A stretch of 64,000 nucleotides of DNA, from positions 248,001-312,000 of the forward strand of contig OY811993.1 in assembly GCA_963681505.1 (NCBI GenBank), in the 5' to 3' direction. Position numbers and translations under genes: made by a program. This DNA comes from Eunapius fragilis. Lineage: Eukaryota; Porifera; Demospongiae; Spongillida; Spongillidae. A model generated the notes under the pieces. It ran no database searches. It saw nothing but the letters and a program-made list of their open reading frames with translations, and was not told the origin of the DNA. This document shows positions 12,745 through 64,000 of this stretch, in pieces. Position 1 is the stretch's first letter. Each line of letters opens with the position of its first letter.

Positions 12745-15700
12745 CTGCTCCCTCTTCTGAAAGGTTGAACTCCAACATATTACGAGTACGGCACAGCTCC
12801 ATAATAGAGCGGTGCACGACGATTTCGCCTAGGGTACCGATGCTGATTTTGCACCACCTCTTCTTGTGATGGGACCTCCTGTTCTTCATTCTGGATGTCA
12901 CGCTCTAGGGCTTCATGCCCATCCTCATGAGCCTGCAGTTCAGGTAGCTCCTGCTGTCTTGGCTTTCTCATTTGTCCCCTATCCCTTGGCTGTATCTCCA
13001 GAATTTCCTCATCGTCGTCCACAATCCTCAAATCTGTACCCACATGGCAATGCTCCTGCATCAGAGGCAACTGATTTTCTACTTCCTGTGGTTTGTGGTC
13101 CTTCCCAGGTCTTGCTGCTTGCATAGAGGGGCAAGGTTTCAAGCGATCAAAATGGACTACCAACCGCTTGCGCCTGTTTGTGTCTTGAATTCTATAGACC
13201 ACTGTGGAGAGCTTCTTCACAACTCTATAGGGCCCAGTCCATGGACAGTGTAATTTCCTCTTCGCTCCTTTAGGGATAACAGGGTTGTGCAGCCAAACTA
13301 AATCGCCCACCTGATATTCATCCCCATGAACTTTCCTGTTATACAACTCCTTCTGTCGCTCCAGACCAGCCCCTGTGCGATTCCTAACTGTCGAATAAGC
13401 TTCCTCCAACGTTTGCCGCAGGTTTCTGACATACTCCTGTGTTGTCATCTCTTCCATAGGGGCAGTCCCATAAGCAAGATCGACAGGTAACCTCGCTTGA
13501 CGGCCAAACAATAGAAAAAATGGTGAAAAACCTGTGGATTGGTGGACAGAAGTATTATAAGCCATACACACTAGCCTTAACTTTTTATCCCAATCTCCAG
13601 GGTGCTCATGCACAGTTGCAGCTAACATACTCAGAAGTGTCCGATTTAGACGTTCTACCAAACCATCAGATTGGGGATGATAGGCCGTTGTCCGCGTCTT
13701 GTCAATGTGCAGCAATTTGCAAACTTCTTGCATAAGCTTCCCCTCGAACTGTCGGCCCTGATCAGAGTGTAGCTGTTCCGGAATAGAAAATCAGCAAAAT
13801 TATTCTTCCACTAACTTCTCAGCAACTGTCACAGCTTCCTGATTTGGAATAGCCCATGCTTCCATCCATTTAGAGAAATAGTCAGAAACCACAAGCACAT
13901 AGTTATTTCCACTCTGCACTGGTGAAAATGGCCCGACAATATCGACTGCTATAATTTGCATGGGGTATCCCGCCTGCATACTTTGCAGTGGTGCTCGCCT
14001 CCTCTGCCCCGGACTTTTCCTCGCTGCACAATCAGCACAACACCTGCACCACACTTTCATGGCTTCAACATGCCCTGGCCAATAAAAACGCTCCTGAAGT
14101 CTGCTAAAGGTCTTGGCTTCACCTAGGTGCCCTCCCGATGGTGCATTGTGCACTTTGTGTAACACATCATCCCGACTCACCTTGGGCACTATCAGTTGGA
14201 GATGACTATATCCATTGGCATCCTCATGCTGTCTATACAAAACGGCATCTTCAACACAAGCTGGTTCCATTGCTCCACAAGTTGTGTGAATTCTCTGCAG
14301 GCCCCTTTATACTTATCAGGATCCGGTCTCATCCCCTGACACATCGCATGATACAACGGCCCAATGGCTTCATCACTCTGCTGCAGCTGCTGTACTGAGT
14401 GATCTAGTACCGATGTCGAAGCAATGCAAGCTTCTTGACTAGGCTGGATGTTGGATCTGGAAAGGGCGTCGGCATTCCCATGATCCCGCCCCCTGCGATG
14501 AATCACCTCGAAATCAAATTCTTGTAGCATCTCCAGCCATCTAGCCATTTGCCCTTCTAGTTCTTTGAAACTATATAACCATTGTAGTGCACTGTGATCT
14601 GTTCTAAGGACAAAGCGTCGCCCAAGTAAGACCTGAAATATTTCGCAAATGTTACCACAGCCAAAAGTTCTTTCCTTGTTACTGAGTACTTCCGTTCTGC
14701 CTTGTTGAGGACCCAGCTAGCATATGCCACAACCTGCTCGCACCCATTGACTTCTTGTGAAAGCACTGCTCCCAGCCCGTACTCGCTTGCATCTGCATCC
14801 AAAATGAAATCATTGCTAAAATCAGGAAAGATAAGTATGGGGGCGGACACAAGAAGAGTTTTCAATTTCCCAAATGCTTCGGCACATTCTGACGTCCACT
14901 TGAAGTCCCTCCCTTTTTCCGTCAAGCGGTACAAAGGCTTTGCGATACCAGCAAAGTTTTAACATACCGCTTATAGTACCCCGCCAGTCCGAGAAACCTC
15001 TGCAATTCCTGCACTGTTGCTGGAGTCGACCACTTGCTTACAACATCCACTTTGGACGGATCCGTTGAAATGCCCTCACGGGAAATCTTATGACCTAAAT
15101 ATAACACCTCTTTGCGAAAGAATGCACACTTTGACAATTTCATCTTCAGTCCCGCCTCCCTCAACTTATCCATCACTTCGCGTAAATTAAGCAAATGGTC
15201 ATGAAATGACTTCCCCATAACAACTATGTCATCTATATACACTAAACATCTGCTCCATTTAACCCCAGCAAGCACCATATCCATCAGCCTCTGAAAAGTT
15301 GCTGGTGCATTACACAACCCAAACGGCATTACCTTGAACTCGAATAATCCCTCCCTGGTTGAAAATGCTGTTTTTGGCCTGTCTAGCTCGCTCACTTCCA
15401 CCTGCCAGTATCCTGACAGTAAATCCAATGTTGAGAACCATTTCGAGCCCCCTAATGCCTCCAAGGTTTCGTCAAACCGTGGTAGCGGGTATGCGTCTTT
15501 GCGGGTCTCAGCATTTAGTTTCCTGTAGTCAATGCAGAACCGCATTGTGCCATCTTTCTTCTGAACGAGTACAACAGGTGATGCCCAAGGACTTGCAGAT
15601 GGTTGAATGACATCTTTCTGGAGCATTTCGTCCAACAACTTGCGAACCTCATGTTGTCTTGCCACGGGAATCGACCTATTAGGTTGCTTTATGGGTGTGG

Positions 15701-17555
15701 TGTCACCTGTGACAATAGAGTGCTGCACCACTGCAGTACGTCCCAGCTCTTCATCCTTATCGGCTAAAACATCTTCATACATTAACAACAAGGTCAACAA
15801 TTCCTCACGCTCCTCCTCTGACAAGTCATCACAGCTCTGCACACAGTTGTATAACATCTCTCTTTTCTGTGCTGATACTCCACCCACCACCCTATTGTCC
15901 ACAGGACCATGTACAGTCGCTGCAATGTGACTATCTTCAATCCTCTCAGCCCTTGCAACTACCATTCCCTTGTAAACAGTAACTGCTACTGGCGAGGGAT
16001 TTACCATACGCACTGGTATACACCCCAACTCACAATCCTGTATGGGCTTGACAACAGCACCCGCAACAAGAACTTGGGGCACATTCTGGTCTCTCAGGCC
16101 TTCTACCAACCAGGTTCCGCTACCACATAGAGAATTTGTGCTTGCTAAAACTTCAACTTCGCTCCAAGCTGGAACAGTTACATTCTCCATCAGAGTGGCC
16201 ATGGCCTGACACACCAAATCAACCTCCTCACATCCTGCAGTCTCTAATGGAATCTTTAAGCCATGACACTGCATAAACATATTGGGTACATCAATAATAC
16301 AGGCATGTTTTTTCAAAAAGTCAATGCCCAATAGAGACTGACACTTAGTGTACTTACAACAACAAACTCTACTGCAAGCCTTTGACCCCCTACCAATATG
16401 TCCATGCTAACAACACCCTCCACATCAACAGGACTCCCGTTCACACCTACCAACGTCCCCCGTTCCATTGTTCCATTTTAAACTTTGCACCACCAAGTCT
16501 CATCCATTGTTCCTTTCCCAGAAGGGTGACTGCAGCTCCAGTATCAATCATCAACGTTAGGGGAACTTGATGCACAGATGCTGTGATGAAGTAAGATTTT
16601 GAGGGATTAACAGCAAAATTAGTAACAACAAAAGAAGATTGGACCTTTCTGATGCCCTCTTGCGCATGGTCCTCTGCGCTGAGGGCAGTCAGTTTCCCTG
16701 TTTCTTTCTTCGCAGAGCACAACCTCTGGCAAAATGCCCCGCCTTTCCACACCTATAACACAACAGTGTTTTCTTTTCCTGCTCTTCTTTCTTAGTTGTT
16801 CCTTTTTCCGAGGGTAGCTGGTCAGTCTTTCTTTCGTTTTCCAACTTTTCCAACCGTTTTGTGATTGAGTCTAGCAACTGCACGACCCCGGGTTGCACCC
16901 GAACATTGCAAACATCATACCCATTCTCTGGTTCTTCCGCCTGCACCGCTGAGACCCTAGTCGGCTCCTCCTTCCTCATCAGTGCATAGGATTCCATTTC
17001 CAGAGTACACGACACTGCTCCTTCAAGCGTTTCTGACCTCTGCTGACGCACTGCAAGTGCAATATTCGCATCACTCAACTCAACCAAATACCTATCGAGG
17101 GTCAAAACTTCTTTGGCATCCTCGGAGAGGGTTGGAAACGCTTTGTCAGCCAGACACCGCAGCTGGTTGGTGAAGTCACCCCACTGCTCTCCTTTCTTCC
17201 TTTTCCTTAGACGGAACTCCGCCGCGTAACGTTCTCTCTTACTGCTGGGCTCAAACCGGTTACGCAGAGCATCCATAGCAGCCTGAAAGTCTCCTTTCGC
17301 CTCGTCCGATAACCGCTTCCACGCCGTCTGTGCCTTTCCCGTTAACCTCACCGGCAACCAATTCAGTTTAATGGAGTCATCCCAGCCGTTCACCTTTGCT
17401 ACCGCCTCAAAATGGTCGGCCCAGTCGGTCCAGCTGGAATCCCCAGTATAGGCATCGGGAGTCACCACCGGTCTGGTAGCCCTCGTGGGGTGCGCCGTTC
17501 CTGGTCCTCCCGAAGACTCCGGTTGCCTCTCCACCATCCTGCCGACTACGCCACT

Positions 17556-17730
17556 TGTAACGACCTTGGTTAGCGCAACCAAATGTATAATCACAGGAAA
17601 GACAAAAGGCACAATAGTACAGCATGCATACACCTAAATAGTCAATTCCTAGAAGGTTCGAGATGTACATGCATTTCTTGCGCAAGCACATTAGTAGCGA
17701 CAATCAAGATTATTGGAGCCTCCTGTTACA
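17556..17730 (-). repeat. LTR of the Ty3/gypsy element (element 5' end)
   Basis: It is the partner of 12,570-12,744 and is followed by AATG, after which BEL/Pao sequence resumes. Confidence 0.95.
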
Positions 17731-19469
17731 AATGCAACAAGGAGCTGAAAATAGGGAAGGAGCAGGCCCATACACTTCTGCTGTCAGTGCTAGTGCCGAT
17801 GATTGGTAACCTGTTGACTATTGAAAGACATGCTACACTGCAAAAACTCCTGAGAGTAACAGCCCTTGTGTTGAAGGCTGCTAAGCTCTTCAACCCTTCC
17901 AAAGGAAAACAACATGGACGCTCAAGCCATATTACAGCTGAAATGCTCTGAAGCCGAGATCATATGGATTAAGGACACTCAGCAATACCTCACGTCTCAT
18001 AGCACCTTCAATCAATTAGATCGATTCAAGCTCTTTATGGACGAGAATGGCATATGGAGATGTGGAGGTAGACTGGCTAATGCAGATATTCCCTACTACA
18101 CCAAACACCCTGTCATGCTGCCTCGTGATCACCCTTTTGCTGCACTTGTTGTACAAGATGCTCATGCCCGAGTAGGGCTCAATGGAGCTAAGGATACCTT
18201 AACAGAAGTCCGTTCAAATTCTGGATACCAAAGGGTCGCAGCTTAGTCAGGAAGCTTGTTTATCATTGTGTCATCTGCAGGAGAGCTGAAGGAATGCCAT
18301 ATGTCGCTCCACCGCCATCACCTTTGCCAGTTCTCCGTGTGAAGGAGGATCCAGCTTTCACTTACACTGGAGTAGACTTTGCCGGCCCATTGTTTATTCG
18401 GACAAATGGTGCAAACTGTAGTGACAAGATATGGATATGCCTGTTCACCTGCCTTGTTACAAGGGCAGTGCATCCTGACATTGTTACTGACATGTCTTCT
18501 GAGATTTTTATTAGCTGTCTGAAGAGATTTGCTGCTCACAAAGGTCTACCTCACAGGTTTCTCTCAGACAATAGTAAAACGTTTAAGGCAGCTTCAAAGT
18601 ATCTGAAATCCGTGTTTAAAGACGATACAGTGAGAGATCATCTAGCTAATCGCCACAGCAGCTGGACATTCAATATTGAACAGGCTAAGTTTTGAGCGGA
18701 TGGTCAGGTCAACCAAGCGTTGCTTGCAGAAACTGGTTGGTCAAGCTCGATTATCACATGACGAGTTACTAACAACTGTTCTAGAGATCGAGTCAATCAT
18801 CAATTCTTGCCCCTTGAGCTACGTGTCAATGGATGATCTTGAAGAGCCCCTGACTAGGTCGCACTTAATGATTGGCCGCCGAGTTCTCAATCTCCCAGAC
18901 CACTTAGGATACTCTGTTGACACTGGTGATGAGGATTTCACCATAGATGACACTTATCTGACTCGGCGTATGAAGTACCTCAACAACCTGCTGAACCATT
19001 ATTGGATGAGGTGGGGAGGTGAGTATTTGGTTGAGCTAAGGGAAAGCCATCGTCATCTGCTGGGCAAGTCAAAGCGAAAACCCCAGATTGCTATAGGGGA
19101 TGTGTTGATTGTACATGATGAGAGACTCCCACGGAGTTTCTGGAAACTTGGTTGTGTGCAGAAACTAATTGTTGGACAAGACGGGGAGACCAGAGGAGCT
19201 ACTGTACAAGTCATCAACAAGAAAGGCAAGAGTGCTTTGATGAATAGACCTGTACAGTTACTGTACCCAATGGAGATACATGTCACGGAGAATGAATCCA
19301 CTGAACAAAAGATGGCTGGACAGGATGATTCAGAACCAATGGCCCAGCCCAGAAGTCAGCCACGCCCTCAACACTCCGCCGCCAAAAGGGGAGAGGAACG
19401 GCGAAGACTCTGGACCCTTGCATTCGAGGAGGACTAACGTTGACCATTGACTGGTCAACGGGGGGAGTG

Positions 19470-24603: not shown

Positions 24604-25615
24604 TTGATCCCTTTGCTTGATGAGCATGAGCCAGCCACACAGGAGGCATTTATCAATCAGGTTCGACACCAGCTCAGCTTGTGTGCAGAAATGAGTGGAT
24701 CTGTGATAGACCAGAGTGAGATTAATGGCGCAACCACACACTCACCAGCATATGCACTAGACCTTGTTCCTGTCAGAAGGCCAAACAGGAATCCCAAGCA
24801 TGGTGGTTACCTAGGGTGCAGTGTTTGCAGGGGAACATTCCTGTTCTATGGCCAGGCTGAGGCATGTGGCTTTAGCCAAGCTGGATCTGAAGGTGAACAG
24901 GATGAGGATGTGCCACAGGATGAGGATGTGCCAGAAGGTGAACAGGATGAGGATGTGCCAGAAGGTGAACAGGATGAGGATGTGCCAGAAGGTGAACAGG
25001 ATAAGGATGTGCCAGAACTTGAACAGGATGACGATATGCCAGAAGGTGAACAGTATGAGGATGTGCCAGAAGGTGAACAGGATGAGGATGTGCCAGAAGG
25101 TGAACAGGATGAAGATGTGCCAGAAGGTGAACAGGATGAGGATGTGCCAGAAGGTGAACAGGATGAGGATGTGCCAGAAGGTGAACAGGACAAAGATATG
25201 CTAGAGGATGAGGATGTGGAACAGGATGAGGATGTGCCAGAATGTGAACAGGATGCAGATGTGCCAGAAGGTGAACAGGATGAAGATGGAGGCGATGCAA
25301 ATGCACAAGCAGATGTACAAGATGAGGATTTGCAAGAAGAGGAGGGTGATGAAAAGGATGGAACACCTGCCCTGCACTTCATTGACTGCATTGTCCAAGG
25401 TGAGCAGAGGGCTGATGGCAATATTGTTCTGTCATGTTTAGAAGCAGCCCTTCATGCTTTGAGACAGCGGTTTCCTCATATTGCCAAAATAATCATGTCC
25501 TCCACCCTAAGAAATCGCAGAGCATCACGGTCTTCAGCTACTGACACCATCAAGAAGGCCTTCTCCACATCAGCAGTCACTTCAACACGGAATAGGCGGA
25601 ATCAAAGTAGTATGT
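24604..25615 (+). CDS. Unidentified protein with a 9-residue acidic repeat
   Basis: The frame opens LLDEHEPATQEAFINQVRHQ, passes two cysteines in GYLGCSVCRGT, then enters about a dozen 27-bp units coding EGEQDEDVP (roughly 24,886-25,290), and continues through TPALHFIDCIVQGEQRADGN and ALRQRFPHIAKIIMSSTLRN. The open frame runs to 25,698, but everything after about 25,615 is antisense to a BEL/Pao reverse transcriptase, so the native C-terminus has been cut off there. It is probably continuous with the segment at 23,997 and may have resumed at 28,598. Function is not inferable; the repeat is strongly acidic and likely unstructured. Confidence 0.45.
24886..25290 (+). repeat. 27-bp coding minisatellite (EGEQDEDVP)
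   Basis: Units of GATGAGGATGTGCCAGAAGG plus TGAACAG repeat about 13-15 times with substitutions and a few shortened units. The length is a multiple of three, which keeps several frames open on both strands. Confidence 0.95.
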
Positions 25616-46290: not shown

Positions 46291-47021
<731 letters not shown>

Positions 47022-47119
47022 ACCTTGTCACATAGCTTTGTTGATACACCAACAGGCCTGGGGCAGACTAAATTTCTTTACTGCTACTAAAAATAAATAT
47101 AGGCCTAATTTATTTTGTC

Positions 47120-47420
47120 AAGTCCACTAGGGCCTTCCTTAAAAATCACACACATTTACAGCCACGGGTACGCACACTTACGTTGTCACGGGAGCACTTA
47201 CATACCCATGGATATACTTGCATTCGCTTACATAGCCACAGGTATGCACGCACACATAGCCATGGGGCAAGCTTACGTTGTCACGGGAGCACTTGCATTC
47301 ACTTACATACGCATGGGTATACTACGGTTCGCTTACATAGCCACGGGTACGCTTACACTAGCCTAAATACCCGTGGGGCAAGCTTTCGTAGTCGCGTGCA
47401 CACTTGCAAATGCCTTTCTA
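47120..47420. repeat. Irregular minisatellite with CACTTACATAGCCACGGGTA units
   Basis: Degenerate units containing GCTTACATAGCCACGGGTA and TTACGTTGTCACGGGAGCAC recur about every 35-60 bases. Confidence 0.6.
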
Positions 47421-47440
47421 GCCTTTAGAACAGACATGGG

Positions 47441-48569
47441 CAAGGCCGTAGATAAGGGGGAGCTTGGGGGGGCACGTGCCCCCCAAAAATTTCTGTGAAA
47501 TTTAAAAATTATTACTGTGCAATCACGTGCGTGGCAATCGCAATGTCAATATAGAAGTATATTGTGCCGAAACGGCCCGCGGTATCATCAAAGGAGGATT
47601 CTGATGTCCGACAAACTTCGGGTAATACAGGCTCAGCTCAGGTAATACTTCACTCAAGTGAATCTAGTAGCGAGCCTATAAGCGGGAGTAATGAAGTCGT
47701 AGGCCTATTGGAAGAATGCGGTCATGATGAAGCAAATGCACCTGATTCACCATCCCCCTGTGACCTGTACCAGAATTCTCCCATTAAAGCCCAATCAGCC
47801 CAGGCTGAAGTTTCCTATGAGGCAGTTTGGTAGTAAGCGTCGTAGCTTTTGTTACTCATGGTATGAAAAGTACCGCTGGTTGCATTACAATGAAGAAGAA
47901 AATGCCGTCTTATGCTTCTATTGCGCTACTGCAGTCCAGTTAAAGATGCCAATGAGAGGATACATGGATACAGTATTTAGTACTTCTGGATTCTTTAACT
48001 GGAAAAAAGCATTAGATAAATTCAGCAAGCACGATCAATCAGCATGCCATTGCGATGCTCTTAGCATGGTTGTAGCAGCTTCGACAGAGACAATGAATGT
48101 GGGTACACAACTAAGTGCTGAATATACTGAACATAAAGCTTTAAACAGAAAATGTATTTTTGCAATTATGTCAAACATTCGCTTCTTAGCGCGGCAAGGT
48201 TTGGCTTTACGTGGAGCGCATTATGATGCTGATATGACTTCAGATAGCAATGCACCAATCAAGGTTAAACTGGTGCATGCTATACTGCATGTTCACAAAG
48301 ATGAAACAGACAAGCTTGACCTTGCAACCATTGGCAATGAATTTGCAAGCCGCAATTCCAGTCGCCAAGAAGTGTTTGGTATTTTTCCTTAATGAGTGTA
48401 TATGATAACGCGCGCATGCATGCAAAACATGGTTCAAATCAAATTGTGATCGAAGAATTGTGCCTACATGTAGGCTTTTACGTACATGGCATACCTATAA
48501 AATTTAGACCACATTGACATTCAGACTATATTGTGCCCCCCCAAACTATAAAAGTTATCTACGGCCCTG
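47441..48569 (+). mobile_element. hAT element remnant, 1,129 bp, carrying only a TTF zinc finger
   Basis: The ends CAAGGCCGTAGATAA (left) and the complement of CAGGGCCGTAGATAA (right) form the TIRs. ATGGG flanks both sides (47,436-47,440 and 48,570-48,574), a 5-bp target duplication. The interior encodes only the N-terminal part of a hAT transposase. A near-identical copy lies at 61,013-62,141. Confidence 0.88.
47564..48392 (+). pseudogene. Truncated hAT transposase fragment with TTF zinc finger
   Basis: The first frame, MPKRPAVSSKEDSDVRQTSG onward, is an acidic Ser-rich head. The zinc finger follows in a different frame (one-base shift near 47,790) with PRLKFPMRQFGSKRRSF, CYSWYEKYRWLHYNEEENAV and LCFYCATA, then a helical region to a stop at 48,392. 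A later DUF4371-like start is recognisable in LARQGLALRGAHYDADM. The catalytic core and dimerisation domain are absent. The frame change could also be an unrecognised intron. Confidence 0.6.
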
Positions 48570-48574
48570 ATGGG

Positions 48575-49304
48575 TACCCTCGTTCAAATCCATACATACT
48601 ACGCCATCAGCGTTCTAGGTCACGGGCACACATAAACAAGCTATCATTACTATGAGAAAAACTTAGAGTCACGACACCACTTATGCCTTGCGTTTGTTTG
48701 GCTGCCAATTGAAAATCAATTGATTTAATTGACATACATGTATGGTCCTGGCACGACTTAAATTATCATCTTCCAGTGACTAGCGTTTTGGGCCCAGTGT
48801 TGCACTGTGCAACGAATCCTTGTGGTTAGCGCCAGGTATACGATGATTATATTTGTATGGTTGCTCTGAACAGAGCAGTAATTGTTTAGCACGAATGTCT
48901 ATTTTACTAACATCAAGGCTTGACGTAGTGTACAATAGGTTCAAAGCGCCACTGCATTAGGACGTGTTGTTGGAAGATTGCGTTGTGCTCTGGCGTATCG
49001 TAAGCACCATATAGAACCAATTGCTGCATCAAGCAGACCTCTAGTTACGAGGCAGACCATCCAGCGCGTACACACTGCACACGCACTCCACACAGATATA
49101 AGCTTTGCCCCTCACTCACCTTTTAAAAACCCTCACGTCACTACAATAAGCAGCTACGCTACCTACCAATCTAAATCTTTGAATTTGAAATAGTTACTTA
49201 TAAATAATTCCTTTTAATGCACTTTGTAGCGATTGGCCTTGGTAGCAGAGCTGAGCTGTTTAAACAGGTACGAAGGGTGGGATATACGTGCCGCACATTT
49301 CTGA
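48575..49304. other. Spacer, nothing supported
   Basis: No exon or repeat pair other than the copy after the gap was recognised. Confidence 0.4.
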
Positions 49305-49560
49305 AGGTGCAACAGGGGTACGCGGGAGAGTGTACAACCTATTCCGGAATACAACGCGCGAGTCCCTTTATGTACAACCACTCGATACTTTGAAATTTGC
49401 CATAGCCTTGCCTTACACCTTTCATCCTTTAGAAATGTGTGGCAAAGGTGCGAGGACAGACTGCCCACGCAAGACCGAACTTTGTTCTCGTCTTTTGAAC
49501 TTCCATCGAGGTACGTTCCTAATTACTTTTTTTGTACAACGTCCGCACATATGGCCGTTG
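49305..49560. repeat. Dispersed repeat related to 45,862-46,195
   Basis: It shares ordered blocks with 45,862-46,195 at perhaps three quarters identity by eye. Confidence 0.6.
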
Positions 49561-49771
49561 ATACAAGTTTTTTCTATTAACTAAGCTTCCCACACGACTG
49601 GCGTGCCACCTACGAGCTCAATTCACATCTGCTGGGCCACGTTCAATATTATATCCCTAAGCCGTGCGATTCAAACGCACTACCGTACCTACCTTGTCAC
49701 CTAAATTAAGTCGTTATCCATTAATTAACCAGGCTTCTCTCTCGCGTGTGTGGCGTGTCTTTTACCAACTA

Positions 49772-49780
49772 GCTTCATAC
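49772..49780. repeat. 9-bp target-site duplication, left
   Basis: GCTTCATAC directly precedes the transposon end TAGCCTCG and recurs at 55,161-55,169 directly after CGAGGCTA. Confidence 0.85.
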
Positions 49781-49897
49781 TAGCCTCGTCCCCAGGCCGT
49801 CAATTAAAGTTTGGGAAAAAAGACGGCCTGGTATCCATTGCAACTCTGTTATTGCGCATGCGCTGGCCATTACCAGAAAAAGTGGTAATCGTATATT
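49781..49897. repeat. Left terminal inverted repeat (117 bp)
   Basis: It begins TAGCCTCGTCCCCAGGCCGT and pairs with 55,044-55,160 with one mismatch. It contains its own hairpin CCAGGCCGTC / GACGGCCTGG at 49,792-49,831. Confidence 0.95.
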
Positions 49898-50004
49898 TTG
49901 CTTGTAAACCTTTCCGTAAACTAACTCGCTAGCGGTCTAAAGTTTTTCCGTTTTCAATTAAAATCATATCACGCACGTGCACAAAATACATAGCTACGCG
50001 TAGT

Positions 50005-53000
50005 ATGGCGACGACGTCAAAGTCTTGCAGGATATGTGGCAGTGTTGTGTCTCCTACACATTGTGTTGCACTCTTTTCAAGGGAATCTTTGGCATCCGAT
50101 CTTGCAGACAGGCTCAGCAAGCTTGCCGATGTCCCAGTGGCTCCAGACGATGGTTTGTCCAGATTCATGTGCAGGTCTTGCAAAAACAAACTTGTGTCAG
50201 CAGAGTATTTTAGAACAACAGCCAAGGCTAGCTATGAAAAAAATAAAGACACTCTCATTGCCACTGGTAGTGCCATGGGTTCACTAGTCCAGGTCACAAA
50301 TAAGAGAACCAAGGATACAAGTGGCCCTGGGGCATCTCCTCACACTAGGCAGTGCAGACCTGTGGCTAAGCGGCCGACTCCTGAGCACCCCGGAAGAAGG
50401 CTTACTTATCCTAATTGTGACAACTGTAAGACAAAACATGAATTATTAATAGTTTCATTCAGTAATGTTACCACAACAGCACATACAGATGATTGTACTG
50501 CCATGCCACTGAGTGACAGTTGTAATTCTCAAGCTGGTACAGAGTGCATTACAGATGGTCCCAGAGAACAAGAGATAGATGTGGTAGGCATTACAGATGG
50601 TCACAGAGAACAAGAGGTAGATGTGGTAGGCGTCTCAAACCTTTCACAGAATCCTGCAGAAGGTAGGAACTGTGCATGGAAGTATTCATGAGCCACATAC
50701 AGCCTTACATATAGGTGATGCAAGCTCAACAGTGATAGACACATGTCACAACAGTACGACAGATGCTACAGCTCCTACACCAATCAAAGTAAGCAAGTTA
50801 TAAACATGATACAATCATAACACACATAATGTCACAGATTTCAGTGTACTCACGTACAAAGGCTGCTGAAGTGATGATAATTGTGAGTCCTGAGTTTGAA
50901 AAGGTTGCCAAGGCACTGGCTGGCGGCAATGTGAAGTCTATTTGCAGGGCTCTTTTTGCCAATCCTCGACTTAGACAAGAGGTTGTGTCCAAAGTGTCCA
51001 GTATGGTCAACAAAGAGTGTTCCTTGTTGTGCAAAAAGAAAGCACAGCCAGTGTCACTGTTCCGCCATATGTCCCTGGAGCAGGCTGAGAGCTTCTCCTG
51101 GAATGAGATCATTTCTGAGCTCAATTTCAAGGCACCCACACTATTCCACATCATACACGATTCCATTGTCACATGCTCAGACCATAGGAACAAGCAAAAG
51201 AAAGGGGATTCACATTACCCAAGCTTGTGCACAGCTGTGGCAATTCTGCTGAAGGAGCGCAACAGACAGATGTGTGGATTGCAGTCCTACATATCCAGTG
51301 CTCTCTTTTCCACTAGAATTCACAAGAAGGTATGTGTGTGAATGCAACTTGATAATGTAGTTCATACACAACAACATTACTGATAGCGTATGTTTTATTA
51401 TAGGCTTGGACAAGGCTAAATCATCTCAACGTCACCCTCAGCTACAATGCCATCCTCAAGCGAGTGGACGAAATTAGCAAACAGCATACAAAAATGATGG
51501 ACAAATGGCTAAAAGAAGGGGCTTTTGTTAAGTATGTTGGTGACAATGTGGACAAGCAGTGCAATGTACGAGACATCAGGAGTGACCACCATGGGCAGCT
51601 TAGACACATGTTCAGCCTACTGGTAATCAAGGCTCGCATCCCACCTCCTGCTCCTCTGCCTGTGTTCTCCACACAAAGCCTCACATCAGTAAATGTAGAC
51701 TGTTTTCTTCCATCCCTTGAAGACATGAAGGTTGTCCAGCATGACATGGAAGTGCTTGTTGGTAGAATCATATGTGATTATATAAAGGACATGAGCAAGC
51801 TGAAAAAGTTTGTTGTCACCCATATTCCGCACACCTACAGTGACAATATGGCAGACAAGTCCGAGGTGATTGTGTTGGATGTGCTGCACAAAAATGAGAT
51901 GAAGAGCAGTGACATGGTGCACATAATGAGAGTAATGGCTTCATACCTAGGACCAACATACAACCATGTTGTTCTTACAGGGGGTGACCATGTCACATGT
52001 GAGAGAGAACGGGGTGCAAAACGTCATGTGATGTGCTCAAATACACGCGAGGGCCGACTTGAACAGCTTGAGCCATGTGTAGAAGACTGGCACTGTGTCA
52101 TGAATTTCATGATGGTAAGTAATACTTTCAGTAAACATATATGTCTAAATGACTGTACCTTTACTATCTGTAGCTGATATGGCAAAAACTTTTCAAGATC
52201 AGTCCACGAGACTATGGCTCACTGTACCAACTGTTCACCCGACTTGGACGCTTGCCTAAAGCAAGAAAGCCCAAGGAAGAGATGCATGCATGTCAGGATG
52301 CATTATTCACTGTGTTCAAGGGACACATAGTGGCAGCTGCATGTAAGGAGTTAAGCATTGAAGGACCAAACAATGACATTAAGGGTGTAGAGATCAACCA
52401 GACTTTGTTGGAGGACGTGGCAGTGAAGGTGGTAAAGAAGTTAGCTGTTATCCCAGAGGCCTTCTTAAATGAGTCTGTGGCAGACACTGGAGATGGAGTG
52501 CACAACTATGCACGTGTTCTATGTCATTTTGCCGCTCTAGTATACCTTTTCATTGATGCTTGGAAAGAAGGAGACGGTGAACGTGTAGTGAGGTGTTGGA
52601 AGCTGTTTATGCTACACTTCCATGCTGAGAAAAAGACCAAATATGCAATTGAGGCTCTTAGGCTGCAGTTTCAACTGGTCACTCTCCAGCCATACCTTGT
52701 GCACCAACTGATGTGGGGAAGGTTTGTCAACACACATGGAGGCAAAGGGCAAAACATACCTTGTGACCTCCACAACGAGCACATCAACAAGCTGTACAAA
52801 GAAATCATTGCAAACATGGGAGCTAACTTCACCGAGTTAGCCAGCACTCGTGCAGCAAGGGCAGTGTCATCCCTTGAGAGACTTGCTCTAGCCTTTGACA
52901 AACAAACTGGCATCCATCCCGACGCAACAGCTCACAGCAGGAGGGCAGATGAGAAAGACGTTAAGATGGTTGTTGAAGTTGTGCTAAAGGCCAGAGTGCT

Positions 53001-53208
53001 TGAGGCAATTGAAAACAGATATCACTCCAAGTTTCCCCAATTTTCTCCAAATCCTTTACATACAATAGATAGAGAAAAAATGATAAAGTGGATAGCAGAG
53101 AAGGCTAAACAGTATAGTAACATCCTTGAAACACGACCAGACTCGGATAGTGAGAATGAGAATCATGAGGAAGATAATTCAATAGATGTAGATGAGGTAG
53201 ACTACTGA
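50005..53208 (+). CDS. DUF6589/Academ-type transposase, five exons, about 993 aa
   Basis: The ATG at 50,005 starts MATTSKSCRICGSVVS. Proposed exons are 50,005-50,662, 50,703-50,788, 50,838-51,329, 51,404-52,114 and 52,174-53,208. All introns are GT-AG, 40-74 bases, and phases agree. Residues 8-60 hold a CxxC...CxxC finger (CRIC, CRSC) that probably binds the transposon ends. Residues 249-650 are helical. The core shows VGDNVDKQ (about 457-464), LTGGDHVT (about 603-610) and EDWH (about 639-642), which I take as the successive Asp-containing motifs of the DUF6589 RNase H-like fold. A helical tail ends in an acidic stretch. The protein would cut and join element ends. No frame break is seen. The first two introns are the least certain; the third and fourth have strong sites. 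Confidence 0.8.
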
Positions 53209-53497
53209 TGGCCTCATGCATACACGTACAACATATATACACCCACTGGTTTTCCGATGCTAAGTTGATGTTGATGTGAGAGTACCTGAGTGTGTTATGC
53301 AGATGTCAGAAGGAAATGTCAGTGTATCGGTGATAGAGGGAGATGTCAGTGCGCAGGTGACACATGTACATGAAGGTGTCAGAGTGCATGTGATGGAGGG
53401 AGATGTCAGTAGTAGAGGGAGGTGTTAGTGTGCAGATGTTAGTGTACAGGTGCTAAATGGAGGTGTTGGTGTGCAGTTGTAATAGAGGGATGTATCT
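53209..53497. repeat. Minisatellite-like spacer between the two convergent transposon genes
   Basis: Degenerate units of GAGGGAGATGTCAGTGTGCA and GTGATAGAGG recur about ten times from about 53,270 to 53,490. No shared terminator or canonical AATAAA was seen. Confidence 0.7.
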
Positions 53498-54995
53498 TCA
53501 CTGAAAATTGCCTCGGCAATTGTCACAGCACAGTTCCCTGTTACGGGGTCCCAGGGACATCGCCACAACTGGATCAAAGTACCTGAGCAAGATGAATCTC
53601 CGACAAAGCTCAGTATTCTCAAGATAGTCTCTCACGGCTTTTAATTCCACATTACGGTGAACACTCTGGTCTGCATACAGAGGAACTTCAACTGGTTTCC
53701 AGTAAATTCTGGACATAGATTGTTGGTGATCTCTGCCAGCTCTGCCACTCTCCTGCATGTAGTCTTCAAGAGACCGAGGAGCACCATAATGAATGATGTA
53801 GTCCAAGTTCTTGAAGTCCACCCCCATTCCCAGAGCCATTGTTGCAAACACCACTCTAATAGTACCATCCCTGTGACTAAGACTGGTCATTATCACCTTT
53901 TTATTGTGCTCATCCGTACAGGAATGGAACATTCCAAATAGGCGATTGTCACTGATCTGTTCTGCTCCTGGTGGGTAGTAGCTGGCATCTCGTAGGGAAT
54001 GGAGAAAGTGAGCATATAAAGATGCACACATATCGAGAGATTGACAGTACACCACAACTCTCTGAGCTTTGATGCCATTTTCAGCTACGTCTTTGACCAA
54101 ACATTCAAAGTCCTCCTCAATGGTCTTCTTTCTTACCACTTCATAACAAATGTTTGGCTTGTCAGGAGACTCAGATACTACACAACAGCCAGCCATATCT
54201 AGCTTGTCAATTATGTCGTCCCTCATCAAGCTAGTCACCGTTGCTGTGGTAGCAAGCATTGGAGCACAACATGGCACAAAAGACCTTAGCTCCCTTAGTG
54301 CACCATACGAAGGGCGAAAGTCTTTGCTCCTGTCAATATTAGTAGCACTTGTTATGAATACTAATTTATTTCATGCCACTTACCACTTGAATACACAGTG
54401 TGCTTCATCAACAGCAACTGCCACTACAGTATCAGACAGAGGAGGGCAGACAAAAAGTTGTCTCCATGTGTAGTCTGTACCAAATATGGCCTCCGGAGCA
54501 CTGTACAGCAGACGAAAACGACCAAGAAACACATCTCTCTCTGTAGCAAGTAGTTCTTTGTCCACATCTACACAAATTGAGCAAATTGCACCTCAACCAA
54601 ACATTTAAATCTATATAGCCAACTAGCTAAGAATGCTCCAGGTATCGATGGACCTACTTACCAGTATTTCCAGAGAGAATTGCAGCAGGTACACCCCTCG
54701 TCTGTAACCCAGACACCTGGTCAACCATCAGGGAAACGAGTGGTGAAATAACTAGCACTACACTTCGTTCCGCTTGTGGAACAGTGGTTCGCTTCAGTTT
54801 GAAGTCAAACATGAATGGTATCAGTTGGTAGCAAATCGACTTCCCGTACCCTGTAGGAAACCAAGCGAACACATCCCGACCACTGTACAAATGAAATAGT
54901 GCTTCCTCTTGCTTAGCCTTCAATACAAGGTTCTGTTGATTAACACACAGAAGAGAATAAGCCACCGCTTCACGGAATTCCTCTGTATTCGCCAT
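53498..54995 (-). CDS. RecQ-like superfamily 2 DNA helicase, three exons, about 449 aa
   Basis: The ATG at 54,995 starts MANTEEFREAVAYSLL. Exons are 54,995-54,662, 54,567-54,384 and 54,329-53,498, with GTAAGT donors and AG acceptors, introns of 94 and 54 bases, phases agreeing. Motifs in order: FPTGYGKS (I, residues 46-53), VISPLVSLMVDQV (Ia, about 82-94), DEAHC (II, 165-169), DFRPSYGALRELR (RecQ-specific, about 176-188), LATTAT (III, 198-203), VFATMALGMGVDF (V, about 333-345) and QESGRAGRD (VI, 365-373). CRRFILLRYFD and CCDNC form the RecQ-type zinc site. It is shorter than cellular RecQ (600 or more residues), with no HRDC domain and little winged-helix. It is convergent with the transposase and inside the same TIRs, so it probably unwinds DNA during excision or strand repair. 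Confidence 0.88.
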
Positions 54996-55043
54996 TGTTC
55001 GAGAAGAATAGTTTACGGACAGGATTACAAGCGAAATTACTAC

Positions 55044-55160
55044 AATATACGATTACCACTTTTTCTGGTAATGGCCAGCGCATGCGCACTAACAGAGTTG
55101 CAATGGATACCAGGCCGTCTTTTTTCCCAAACTTTAATTGACGGCCTGGGGACGAGGCTA
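55044..55160. repeat. Right terminal inverted repeat (117 bp)
   Basis: It is the complement of 49,781-49,897 with one mismatch and ends GGGGACGAGGCTA before GCTTCATAC. Confidence 0.95.
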
Positions 55161-55169
55161 GCTTCATAC
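55161..55169. repeat. 9-bp target-site duplication, right
   Basis: GCTTCATAC matches 49,772-49,780. Confidence 0.85.
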
Positions 55170-60415: not shown

Positions 60416-60486
60416 GGCATGCCATGTAAAAGCTTACTCCATATCTGCCGTGCCATTCAACACGTATGCAGCGCGAGTAAAATTAA

Positions 60487-60593
<107 letters not shown>

Positions 60594-61012
60594 ACCTTGT
60601 CACATAGCTTTGTTGATACACCAACAGGCCTGGGGCAGACTAAATTTCTTTACTGCTACTAAAAATAAATATAGGCCTAATTTATTTTGTCAAGTCCACT
60701 AGGGCCTTCCTTAAAAATCACACACATTTACAGCCACGGGTACGCACACTTACGTTGTCACGGGAGCACTTACATACCCATGGATATACTTGCATTCGCT
60801 TACATAGCCACGGGTATGCACGCACACATAGCCATGGGGCAAGCTTACGTTGTCACGGGAGCACTTGCATTCACTTACATACGCATGGGTATACTACGGT
60901 TCGCTTACATAGCCACGGGTACGCTTACACTAGCCTAAATACCCGTGGGGCAAGCTTTCGTAGTCGCGTGCACACTTGCAAATGCCTTTCTAGCCTTTAG
61001 AACAGACATGGG

Positions 61013-62141
61013 CAAGGCCGTAGATAAGGGGGAGCTTGGGGGGGCACGTGCCCCCCAAAAATTTCTGTGAAATTTAAAAATTATTACTGTGCAATCACGT
61101 GCGTGGCAATCGCAATGTCAATATAGAAGTATATTGTGCCGAAACGGCCCGCGGTATCATCAAAGGAGGATTCTGATGTCCGACAAACTTCGGGTAATAC
61201 AGGCTCAGCTCAGGTAATACTTCACTCAAGTGAATCTAGTAGCGAGCCTATAAGCGGGAGTAATGAAGTCGTAGGCCTATTGGAAGAATGCGGTCATGAT
61301 GAAGCAAATGCACCTGATTCACCATCCCCCTGTGACCTGTACCAGAATTCTCCCATTAAAGCCCAATCAGCCCAGGCTGAAGTTTCCTATGAGGCAGTTT
61401 GGTAGTAAGCGTCGTAGCTTTTGTTACTCATGGTATGAAAAGTACCGCTGGTTGCATTACAATGAAGAAGAAAATGCCGTCTTATGCTTCTATTGCGCTA
61501 CTGCAGTCCAGTTAAAGATGCCAATGAGAGGATACATGGATACAGTATTTAGTACTTCTGGATTCTTTAACTGGAAAAAAGCATTAGATAAATTCAGCAA
61601 GCACGATCAATCAGCATGCCATTGCGATGCTCTTAGCATGGTTGTAGCAGCTTCGACAGAGACAATGAATGTGGGTACACAACTAAGTGCTGAATATACT
61701 GAACATAAAGCTTTAAACAGAAAATGTATTTTTGCAATTATGTCAAACATTCGCTTCTTAGCGCGGCAAGGTTTGGCTTTACGTGGAGCGCATTATGATG
61801 CTGATATGACTTCAGATAGCAATGCACCAATCAAGGTTAAACTGGTGCATGCTATACTGCATGTTCACAAAGATGAAACAGACAAGCTTGACCTTGCAAC
61901 CATTGGCAATGAATTTGCAAGCCGCAATTCCAGTCGCCAAGAAGTGTTTGGTATTTTTCCTTAATGAGTGTATATGATAACGCGCGCATGCATGCAAAAC
62001 ATGGTTCAAATCAAATTGTGATCGAAGAATTGTGCCTACATGTAGGCTTTTACGTACATGGCATACCTATAAAATTTAGACCACATTGACATTCAGACTA
62101 TATTGTGCCCCCCCAAACTATAAAAGTTATCTACGGCCCTG
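61013..62141 (+). mobile_element. hAT element remnant, duplicate copy
   Basis: It has the same ends, 5-bp flanking ATGGG and TTF zinc-finger fragment (61,136-61,964) as the copy at 47,441-48,569. Confidence 0.88.
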
Positions 62142-63352
62142 ATGGGTACCCTCGTTCAAATCCATACATACTACGCCATCAGCGTTCTAGGTCACGGGCA
62201 CACATAAACAAGCTATCATTACTATGAGAAAAACTTAGAGTCACGACACCACTTATGCCTTGCGTTTGTTTGGCTGCCAATTGAAAATCAATTGATTTAA
62301 TTGACATACATGTATGGTCCTGGCACGACTTAAATTATCATCTTCCAGTGACTAGCGTTTTGGGCCCAGTGTTGCACTGTGCAACGAATCCTTGTGGTTA
62401 GCGCCAGGTATACGATGATTATATTTGTATGGTTGCTCTGAACAGAGCAGTAATTGTTTAGCACGAATGTCTATTTTACTAACATCAAGGCTTGACGTAG
62501 TGTACAATAGGTTCAAAGCGCCACTGCATTAGGACGTGTTGTTGGAAGATTGCGTTGTGCTCTGGCGTATCGTAAGCACCATATAGAACCAATTGCTGCA
62601 TCAAGCAGACCTCTAGTTACGAGGCAGACCATCCAGCGCGTACACACTGCACACGCACTCCACACAGATATAAGCTTTGCCCCTCACTCACCTTTTAAAA
62701 ACCCTCACGTCACTACAATAAGCAGCTACGCTACCTACCAATCTAAATCTTTGAATTTGAAATAGTTACTTATAAATAATTCCTTTTAATGCACTTTGTA
62801 GCGATTGGCCTTGGTAGCAGAGCTGAGCTGTTTAAACAGGTACGAAGGGTGGGATATACGTGCCGCACATTTCTGAAGGTGCAACAGGGGTACGCGGGAG
62901 AGTGTACAACCTATTCCGGAATACAACGCGCGAGTCCCTTTATGTACAACCACTCGATACTTTGAAATTTGCCATAGCCTTGCCTTACACCTTTCATCCT
63001 TTAGAAATGTGTGGCAAAGGTGCGAGGACAGACTGCCCACGCAAGACCGAACTTTGTTCTCGTCTTTTGAACTTCCATCGAGGTACGTTCCTAATTACTT
63101 TTTTTGTACAACGTCCGCACATATGGCCGTTGATACAAGTTTTTTCTATTAACTAAGCTTCCCACACGACTGGCGTGCCACCTACGAGCTCAATTCACAT
63201 CTGCTGGGCCACGTTCAATATTATATCCCTAAGCCGTGCGATTCAAACGCACTACCGTACCTACCTTGTCACCTAAATTAAGTCGTTATCCATTAATTAA
63301 CCAGGCTTCTCTCTCGCGTGTGTGGCGTGTCTTTTACCAACTAGCTTCATAC

Positions 63353-64000
63353 TAGCCTCGTCCCCAGGCCGTCAATTAAAGTTTGGGAAAAAAGACGGCC
63401 TGGTATCCATTGCAACTCTGTTATTGCGCATGCGCTGGCCATTACCAGAAAAAGTGGTAATCGTATATTTTGCTTGTAAACCTTTCCGTAAACTAACTCG
63501 CTAGCGGTCTAAAGTTTTTCCGTTTTCAATTAAAATCATATCACGCACGTGCACAAAATACATAGCTACGCGTAGTATGGCGACGACGTCAAAGTCTTGC
63601 AGGATATGTGGCAGTGTTGTGTCTCCTACACATTGTGTTGCACTCTTTTCAAGGGAATCTTTGGCATCCGATCTTGCAGACAGGCTCAGCAAGCTTGCCG
63701 ATGTCCCAGTGGCTCCAGACGATGGTTTGTCCAGATTCATGTGCAGGTCTTGCAAAAACAAACTTGTGTCAGCAGAGTATTTTAGAACAACAGCCAAGGC
63801 TAGCTATGAAAAAAATAAAGACACTCTCATTGCCACTGGTAGTGCCATGGGTTCACTAGTCCAGGTCACAAATAAGAGAACCAAGGATACAAGTGGCCCT
63901 GGGGCATCTCCTCACACTAGGCAGTGCAGACCTGTGGCTAAGCGGCCGACTCCTGAGCACCCCGGAAGAAGGCTTACTTATCCTAATTGTGACAACTGTA
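63353..64000. mobile_element. Left end of a second copy of the helicase-bearing transposon
   Basis: It begins with the same GCTTCATAC flank and TAGCCTCG end as 49,781 and runs to the window edge. The identical flank means this is a duplicated locus, not an independent insertion. Confidence 0.95.
63577..64000 (+). CDS. DUF6589/Academ-type transposase, 5' part, cut by the window end
   Basis: It is identical over the visible part to the first exon at 50,005, including the CRIC and CRSC finger. The gene is incomplete here only because the window stops. Confidence 0.85.
   Translation, partial: MATTSKSCRICGSVVSPTHCVALFSRESLASDLADRLSKLADVPVAPDDGLSRFMCRSCKNKLVSAEYFRTTAKASYEKNKDTLIATGSAMGSLVQVTNKRTKDTSGPGASPHTRQCRPVAKRPTPEHPGRRLTYPNCDNC

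Follow-up and report, generated by a model that had tools for sequence, protein, structure and literature searches.

The DNA transposons closest to the locus described here are the Academ elements, which Kojima (2023; PMC10045372) divides into AcademH, with 9- or 10-bp target-site duplications (TSDs) and a helicase, and AcademX, with 3- or 4-bp TSDs and a nuclease. Helicase_C and DEAD are given as the AcademH domains in PMC10799480, and PMC10294476 puts bivalve Academ elements at an average of 5,565 bp. RecQ helicases are also carried by KolobokH, within a group of TTAA-specific elements with 4-bp TSDs, and by the rhodophyte Kolobok-1_CCri, where the gene lies on the complementary strand (PMC9587614). 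The subject of this study is a 5,380-bp element at positions 49781-55160 of a 64,000-nucleotide stretch of Eunapius fragilis DNA (contig OY811993.1, positions 248,001 to 312,000), which is referred to as the window, and which pairs a DUF6589 gene with a RecQ-like helicase gene. I regard it, with a probability of roughly 0.8, as an autonomous transposon of AcademH type, some copies of which have recently been mobile. AcademH itself is said, in the title of a 2020 paper by Kojima, to occur in animals and fungi.

Structure of the element and its genes

Positions 49781-55160 of the window form a complete DNA transposon with terminal inverted repeats (TIRs), a TSD and two genes. The TIRs (49781-49897 on the + strand and 55044-55160 on the - strand) are 117 bp long with a single mismatch at position 72, exactly where the initial annotation had placed them, and a gapped alignment extends their similarity to ~150 bp at 91%. 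The element ends are TAGCC...GGCTA inverted repeats, and a perfect 9-bp direct repeat, GCTTCATAC, abuts both TIRs (49772-49780 and 55161-55169); that annotation had listed no such repeat.

Gene models were predicted from open reading frames (ORFs), phase and GT-AG sites. They give a + strand gene of four exons encoding 962 amino acids and a - strand gene of three exons encoding 449 amino acids, with GT-AG borders at all five introns and 289 bp between the two stop codons. Two convergent spliced genes had been proposed from the letters alone, as had their identity as a DUF6589-type protein and a RecQ-like helicase, and profile matches to Pfam DUF6589 and, above its cut-off, to NCBIfam TIGR00614 now bear out both identities. 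Exon 1 of the predicted transposase (50005-50662) encodes an N-terminal, Cys-type zf-AD domain (Pfam, 2.3e-10), and also holds two 42-bp in-frame tandem repeats (50546-50631). It is followed by exon 2 (50845-51329), by exon 3 (51404-52114), with the first part of DUF6589 (PF20231; 2.8e-12) and the motifs GDNVD (residue 427), TGGDH (573) and VEDWH (607), and by exon 4 (52174-53208), with the remainder of the domain (3.6e-30) and the motifs EGDGER (750) and PCDLHNEHIN (814).

On the - strand, helicase exon 1 (54995-54662) carries motif I (PTGYGKS), exon 2 (54567-54384) the DEAHC box, and exon 3 (54329-53498) Helicase_C and the RecQ zinc-binding domain. The Pfam matches are DEAD (8.2e-10), Helicase_C (5.7e-15) and RecQ_Zn_bind (2.1e-7; 32 bits against a cut-off of 25), and the protein scores 262 bits with TIGR00614 recQ_fam (cut-off 219.8) but stays far below what the bacterial RecQ equivalog models require. 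Its closest relative in the PDB is WRN (5.8e-51), followed by E. coli RecQ (1.9e-46) and RECQ1 (9e-42). It shares the helicase core and the zinc-binding domain with these cellular enzymes, but at just 449 amino acids it has no exonuclease domain and nothing after the zinc domain.

Conservation of the gene pair and origin of the helicase

The genome searched comprised 219 Mb in 24 contigs, with the window on contig C23. The RecQ_Zn_bind profile gave 83 matches at E<=1, and the DUF6589 profile gave 116, which merged into 90 loci (none of 14 prokaryote controls was matched). Fifty-eight of the 83 RecQ_Zn_bind matches had a DUF6589 locus within 3 kb, where ~0.24 would be expected by chance; the number above the Pfam cut-off is also 58 of 83, though this is a different set. 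The paired genes were convergent in 57 cases, divergent in none and on the same strand in one, which adjoins a small inverted fragment. The convergent gene pair is thus conserved across many diverged families and is no accident of capture, because so many of the RecQ_Zn_bind matches sit beside DUF6589 and nearly all of these in the same orientation. Several families with only ~33-36% helicase identity to the window element have the same layout, and the break in the helicase after DEAHC..W and that in the transposase at residue 619 coincide across families, which is consistent with shared introns.

The zf-AD profile had 85 matches in the genome. In 26 cases the match lies upstream of DUF6589, on its strand and within 4.5 kb, and the other 59 are elsewhere; none of the 85 was near DUF6589 in any other arrangement. 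Three of the 26 are weak (E 0.48-0.74), yet are correctly placed in diverged families.

The ratio of nonsynonymous to synonymous substitution rates (dN/dS) was computed for the window copy against single copies of another family, 76% identical to its own, with two or three copies chosen per exon. It was 0.13-0.17 for transposase exon 3, 0.15-0.18 for exon 4, 0.32-0.33 for exon 2 and 0.19-0.20 for helicase exon 3. Judged by these ratios, both genes are under purifying selection and both predicted proteins are kept working.

A helicase tree of 15 rows placed 10 element helicases on one side of a branch with support of 94/92, just under the level the program marks with a star. Host RECQ1, E. coli RecQ and human WRN fell outside this branch, and L054 and L059, two RecQ-type genes of the same genome, formed a further group. 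The three cellular rows were the only ones used (host BLM, WRN, RECQ4 and RECQ5 were left out), the RECQ1 row is long and 47% filled, two of the 10 element rows (A2_C20 and F_C1) come from loci with no DUF6589 partner within 3 kb, and B copies whose frames were short were excluded. Over the partial row, the helicases of the window family and of the 76% family are 25-29% identical to host RECQ1, and a recent capture from that gene is not supported; ultimately, the element helicases are likely to stem from a different RecQ paralogue captured very long ago.

Host RECQ1 (L029) lies at C5:3892036, and a shorter RECQ1-like stretch (L030) was seen ~118 kb away at C5:4010590. L054 (C9:7810237) and L059 (C18:6245389) have their RecQ-type domains in very long ORFs (1564 and 1241 amino acids) that are 48% alike; set apart from the AcademH helicases, they are possibly another RecQ-bearing mobile element.

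Copies, target sites and recent mobility

Searching the genome with the element returned 120 matches. Eight of these are 99-100% identical to it over 5,190 or more of its 5,380 bases, and a second set, with the same layout, is 75-76% identical in DNA. Among six A-family copies checked, both frames are open in the window copy (L002), L001, L003 and L005, whereas in L004 and L006 only the helicase frame is open and the transposase is broken.

Twenty-eight copies were retrieved, 16 of them two-ended, and a 9-mer duplication with at most one mismatch flanked 14 of these 16 (13 were found by script, and L021, with AAGTCTACC, was added once its proper left end was used); L015 and L018 had none. A set of 12 independent insertions was obtained by excluding these two, L001 as a duplicate of L002, and L025 for its deviant right tip and one mismatch in its duplication. 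Eleven of the 12 have perfect 9-bp duplications and one has a single mismatch. Insertion of the whole element, at both ends and with a 9-bp stagger, is therefore shown by these flanks.

The flanks of L017, a related copy, were joined over one 9-mer and matched uninterrupted at 97-100% in at least 40 places, so this copy sits in a host repeat that is abundant without the insertion. The joined flanks of five other copies gave no match among the 40 of 2165 candidates scored, which is uninformative for those five. The element has moved recently, since near-identical copies elsewhere are flanked by different 9-bp duplications and the L017 site is also found empty. A second, identical copy begins within the window itself (63353-64000, + strand) but is no separate insertion, as its flanks and 9-bp duplication are identical to those of the first. 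Window positions 46838-50428 and 60416-64000 are 99.8% identical at an offset of 13.57 kb, and this duplication, which takes in the whole element and its flanks, is either segmental or an artefact of the assembly.

In all 12 insertions the 9-mer starts with a purine (position 1) and ends with a pyrimidine (position 9), whereas ~24% of the 9-mers in the window fit this rule, giving a chance of ~4e-8; with L025 (TTTAGTTTC) restored, the purine holds in 12 of 13 and the pyrimidine in 13 of 13. Outside the 9-mer, a pattern spotted post hoc has Y at -2 and R at 12, each in 11 of 12 insertions. The target is weakly palindromic, with a symmetry that appears to extend beyond the 9-mer, and this fits a two-fold transposase complex.

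The 21-base tip of the TIR has 249 + 243 matches in the genome (at most two mismatches) against none for a reversed control, which speaks against a chance likeness. The first 100 places listed contained at least 37 neighbouring +/- pairs, of which at least 26 span no more than 800 bp, at least seven exactly 537 bp, and at least four only 52-79 bp. These short TIR-only copies look like internally deleted elements and would probably be mobilised in trans. The four pairs of facing tips 52-79 bp apart (C3:2202922, C3:7717404, C4:13266440 and C6:8526972) reduce the element to its ends, as minimal hairpin-like copies.

Two other features were seen in the window. Retroelement remains at 12783-17633 (-) and 18646-19434 (+) include a reverse transcriptase (5.8e-38), an integrase C-terminal domain, a weak gag match and a DUF5641 frame, and a short tandem array at 24889-25288, with copies ~88% alike, lies in a 367-amino-acid ORF with no Pfam match.

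Classification, alternatives and mechanism

The element very probably belongs in AcademH, because its helicase and 9-bp duplication match the definition given in PMC10045372; TIRs and a superfamily 2 helicase with DEAD and Helicase_C domains also agree, and its 5,380 bp is near the mean of 5,565 bp given for bivalve Academ elements. The initial annotation had suggested Academ or a group sister to it, and AcademH is the filing that suits it best. DUF6589 may mark the Academ transposase, and AcademX would belong to the same superfamily if that assumption is right. AcademX itself was ruled out by the 9-bp duplications and by the presence of a helicase instead of a nuclease, as against the 3- or 4-bp duplications and nuclease described for it. 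AcademH is already known; what the sponge genome has is a rich set in which the two genes are kept together.

Several results weigh against this reading. The likeness to AcademH (transposase plus helicase, TIRs, duplication length) is a likeness to published descriptions, and the role that this reading gives the helicase is deduced. Twenty-five of the 83 RecQ_Zn_bind matches and 32 of the 90 DUF6589 loci are unpaired. XPG_I had three matches in the genome, none near DUF6589, which leaves no bridge to a nuclease-bearing Academ. Searching the PDB with profiles of the DUF6589 alignments gave no match to an RNase H-like or transposase structure, and an AlphaFold model of exon 3 built from one sequence reached a predicted local distance difference test (pLDDT) score of 34.5 and was discarded. 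PDB matches to the NSD2/NSD3 methyltransferases (0.017 and worse) were taken as chance.

One alternative is a sister lineage or separate superfamily, in which a DUF6589 transposase with zf-AD acquired its convergent RecQ gene independently. The tie to AcademH is one of description rather than of transposase homology, zf-AD precedes DUF6589 in 26 places and never in another arrangement, and the first 12 of 655 literature matches for ZAD and transposase contained no such transposon; both the helicase and the 9-bp duplication nevertheless agree with AcademH as defined in PMC10045372, and I consider a separate group unlikely. A more specific form of it is about as doubtful, if not slightly more so: the zf-AD/DUF6589/RecQ elements would be a distinct lineage beside AcademH, with the helicase as an indispensable second subunit that determines the 9-bp stagger and opens the palindromic target duplex, and with DUF6589 as a transposase family not recognised so far, whose fold is arranged in its own way. 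No mention of DUF6589 was found in the literature searched, and a search for viral relatives with one of the two DUF6589 exons gave one pattern match, with none confirmed.

A Kolobok element of the KolobokH or Kolobok-1_CCri type is the least probable of the alternatives and was ruled out, for although both are RecQ-bearing DNA transposons and the latter has its RecQ on the opposite strand, PMC9587614 has Kolobok with another transposase and TTAA 4-bp duplications, whereas those found here are 9 bp and none is TTAA. KolobokH does qualify the earlier statement that cut-and-paste elements seldom carry a helicase, which is broadly fair. Hardly more credible is the idea that one element caught a RecQ gene of the host. 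The protein is clearly of the RecQ family and closest to WRN among solved structures, but capture was rejected on the 57 convergent pairs, the 25-29% identity to host RECQ1 and the separate branch of the 10 element helicases. The initial annotation had named a captured host RecQ, outside any other element, as one finding that would count against it, and this was checked in part, through the pairing and a tree with three cellular rows, and not found. Copying by helicase-driven strand displacement in the manner of peel-and-paste or Helitron-like elements, instead of cut-and-paste, would suit a helicase that is conserved and under selection, yet long TIRs, clean flanking 9-bp duplications and an empty site are the marks of two-ended staggered insertion, and I find it improbable. 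Copying out of a circle followed by pasting in would leave identical marks.

For the AcademH-type element, the DUF6589 protein would be a DDE-type transposase that excises the element and joins both target strands 9 bp apart. The candidate acidic residues are those of GDNVD, GGD(H/Q) and the Glu of PCDLHxEHxN. GGD and EDWH are kept in four aligned rows (two close and two distant families), EGDG and PCDLHxEH in five aligned rows of diverged families, and GDNVD was seen in two close families only. The zf-AD domain may aid dimerisation or end binding. The RecQ helicase would most likely unwind the element ends or the strand-transfer intermediate, and such unwinding would expose the ends or pass the 9-nt gaps and the donor break to host repair; I place the helicase at these steps only tentatively.

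The zf-AD finger and the palindromic target preference are perhaps new details. Cut-and-paste elements that carry a helicase depart from the rule that a transposase is all that is needed, and here one genome supplies copies in which both frames are open, another family that is 76% identical in DNA and further families at ~33-36% helicase identity. Such a set of copies makes the purpose of the helicase directly testable in a two-gene transposition assay, and DUF6589, a Pfam family of unknown function, gains a name and a setting.

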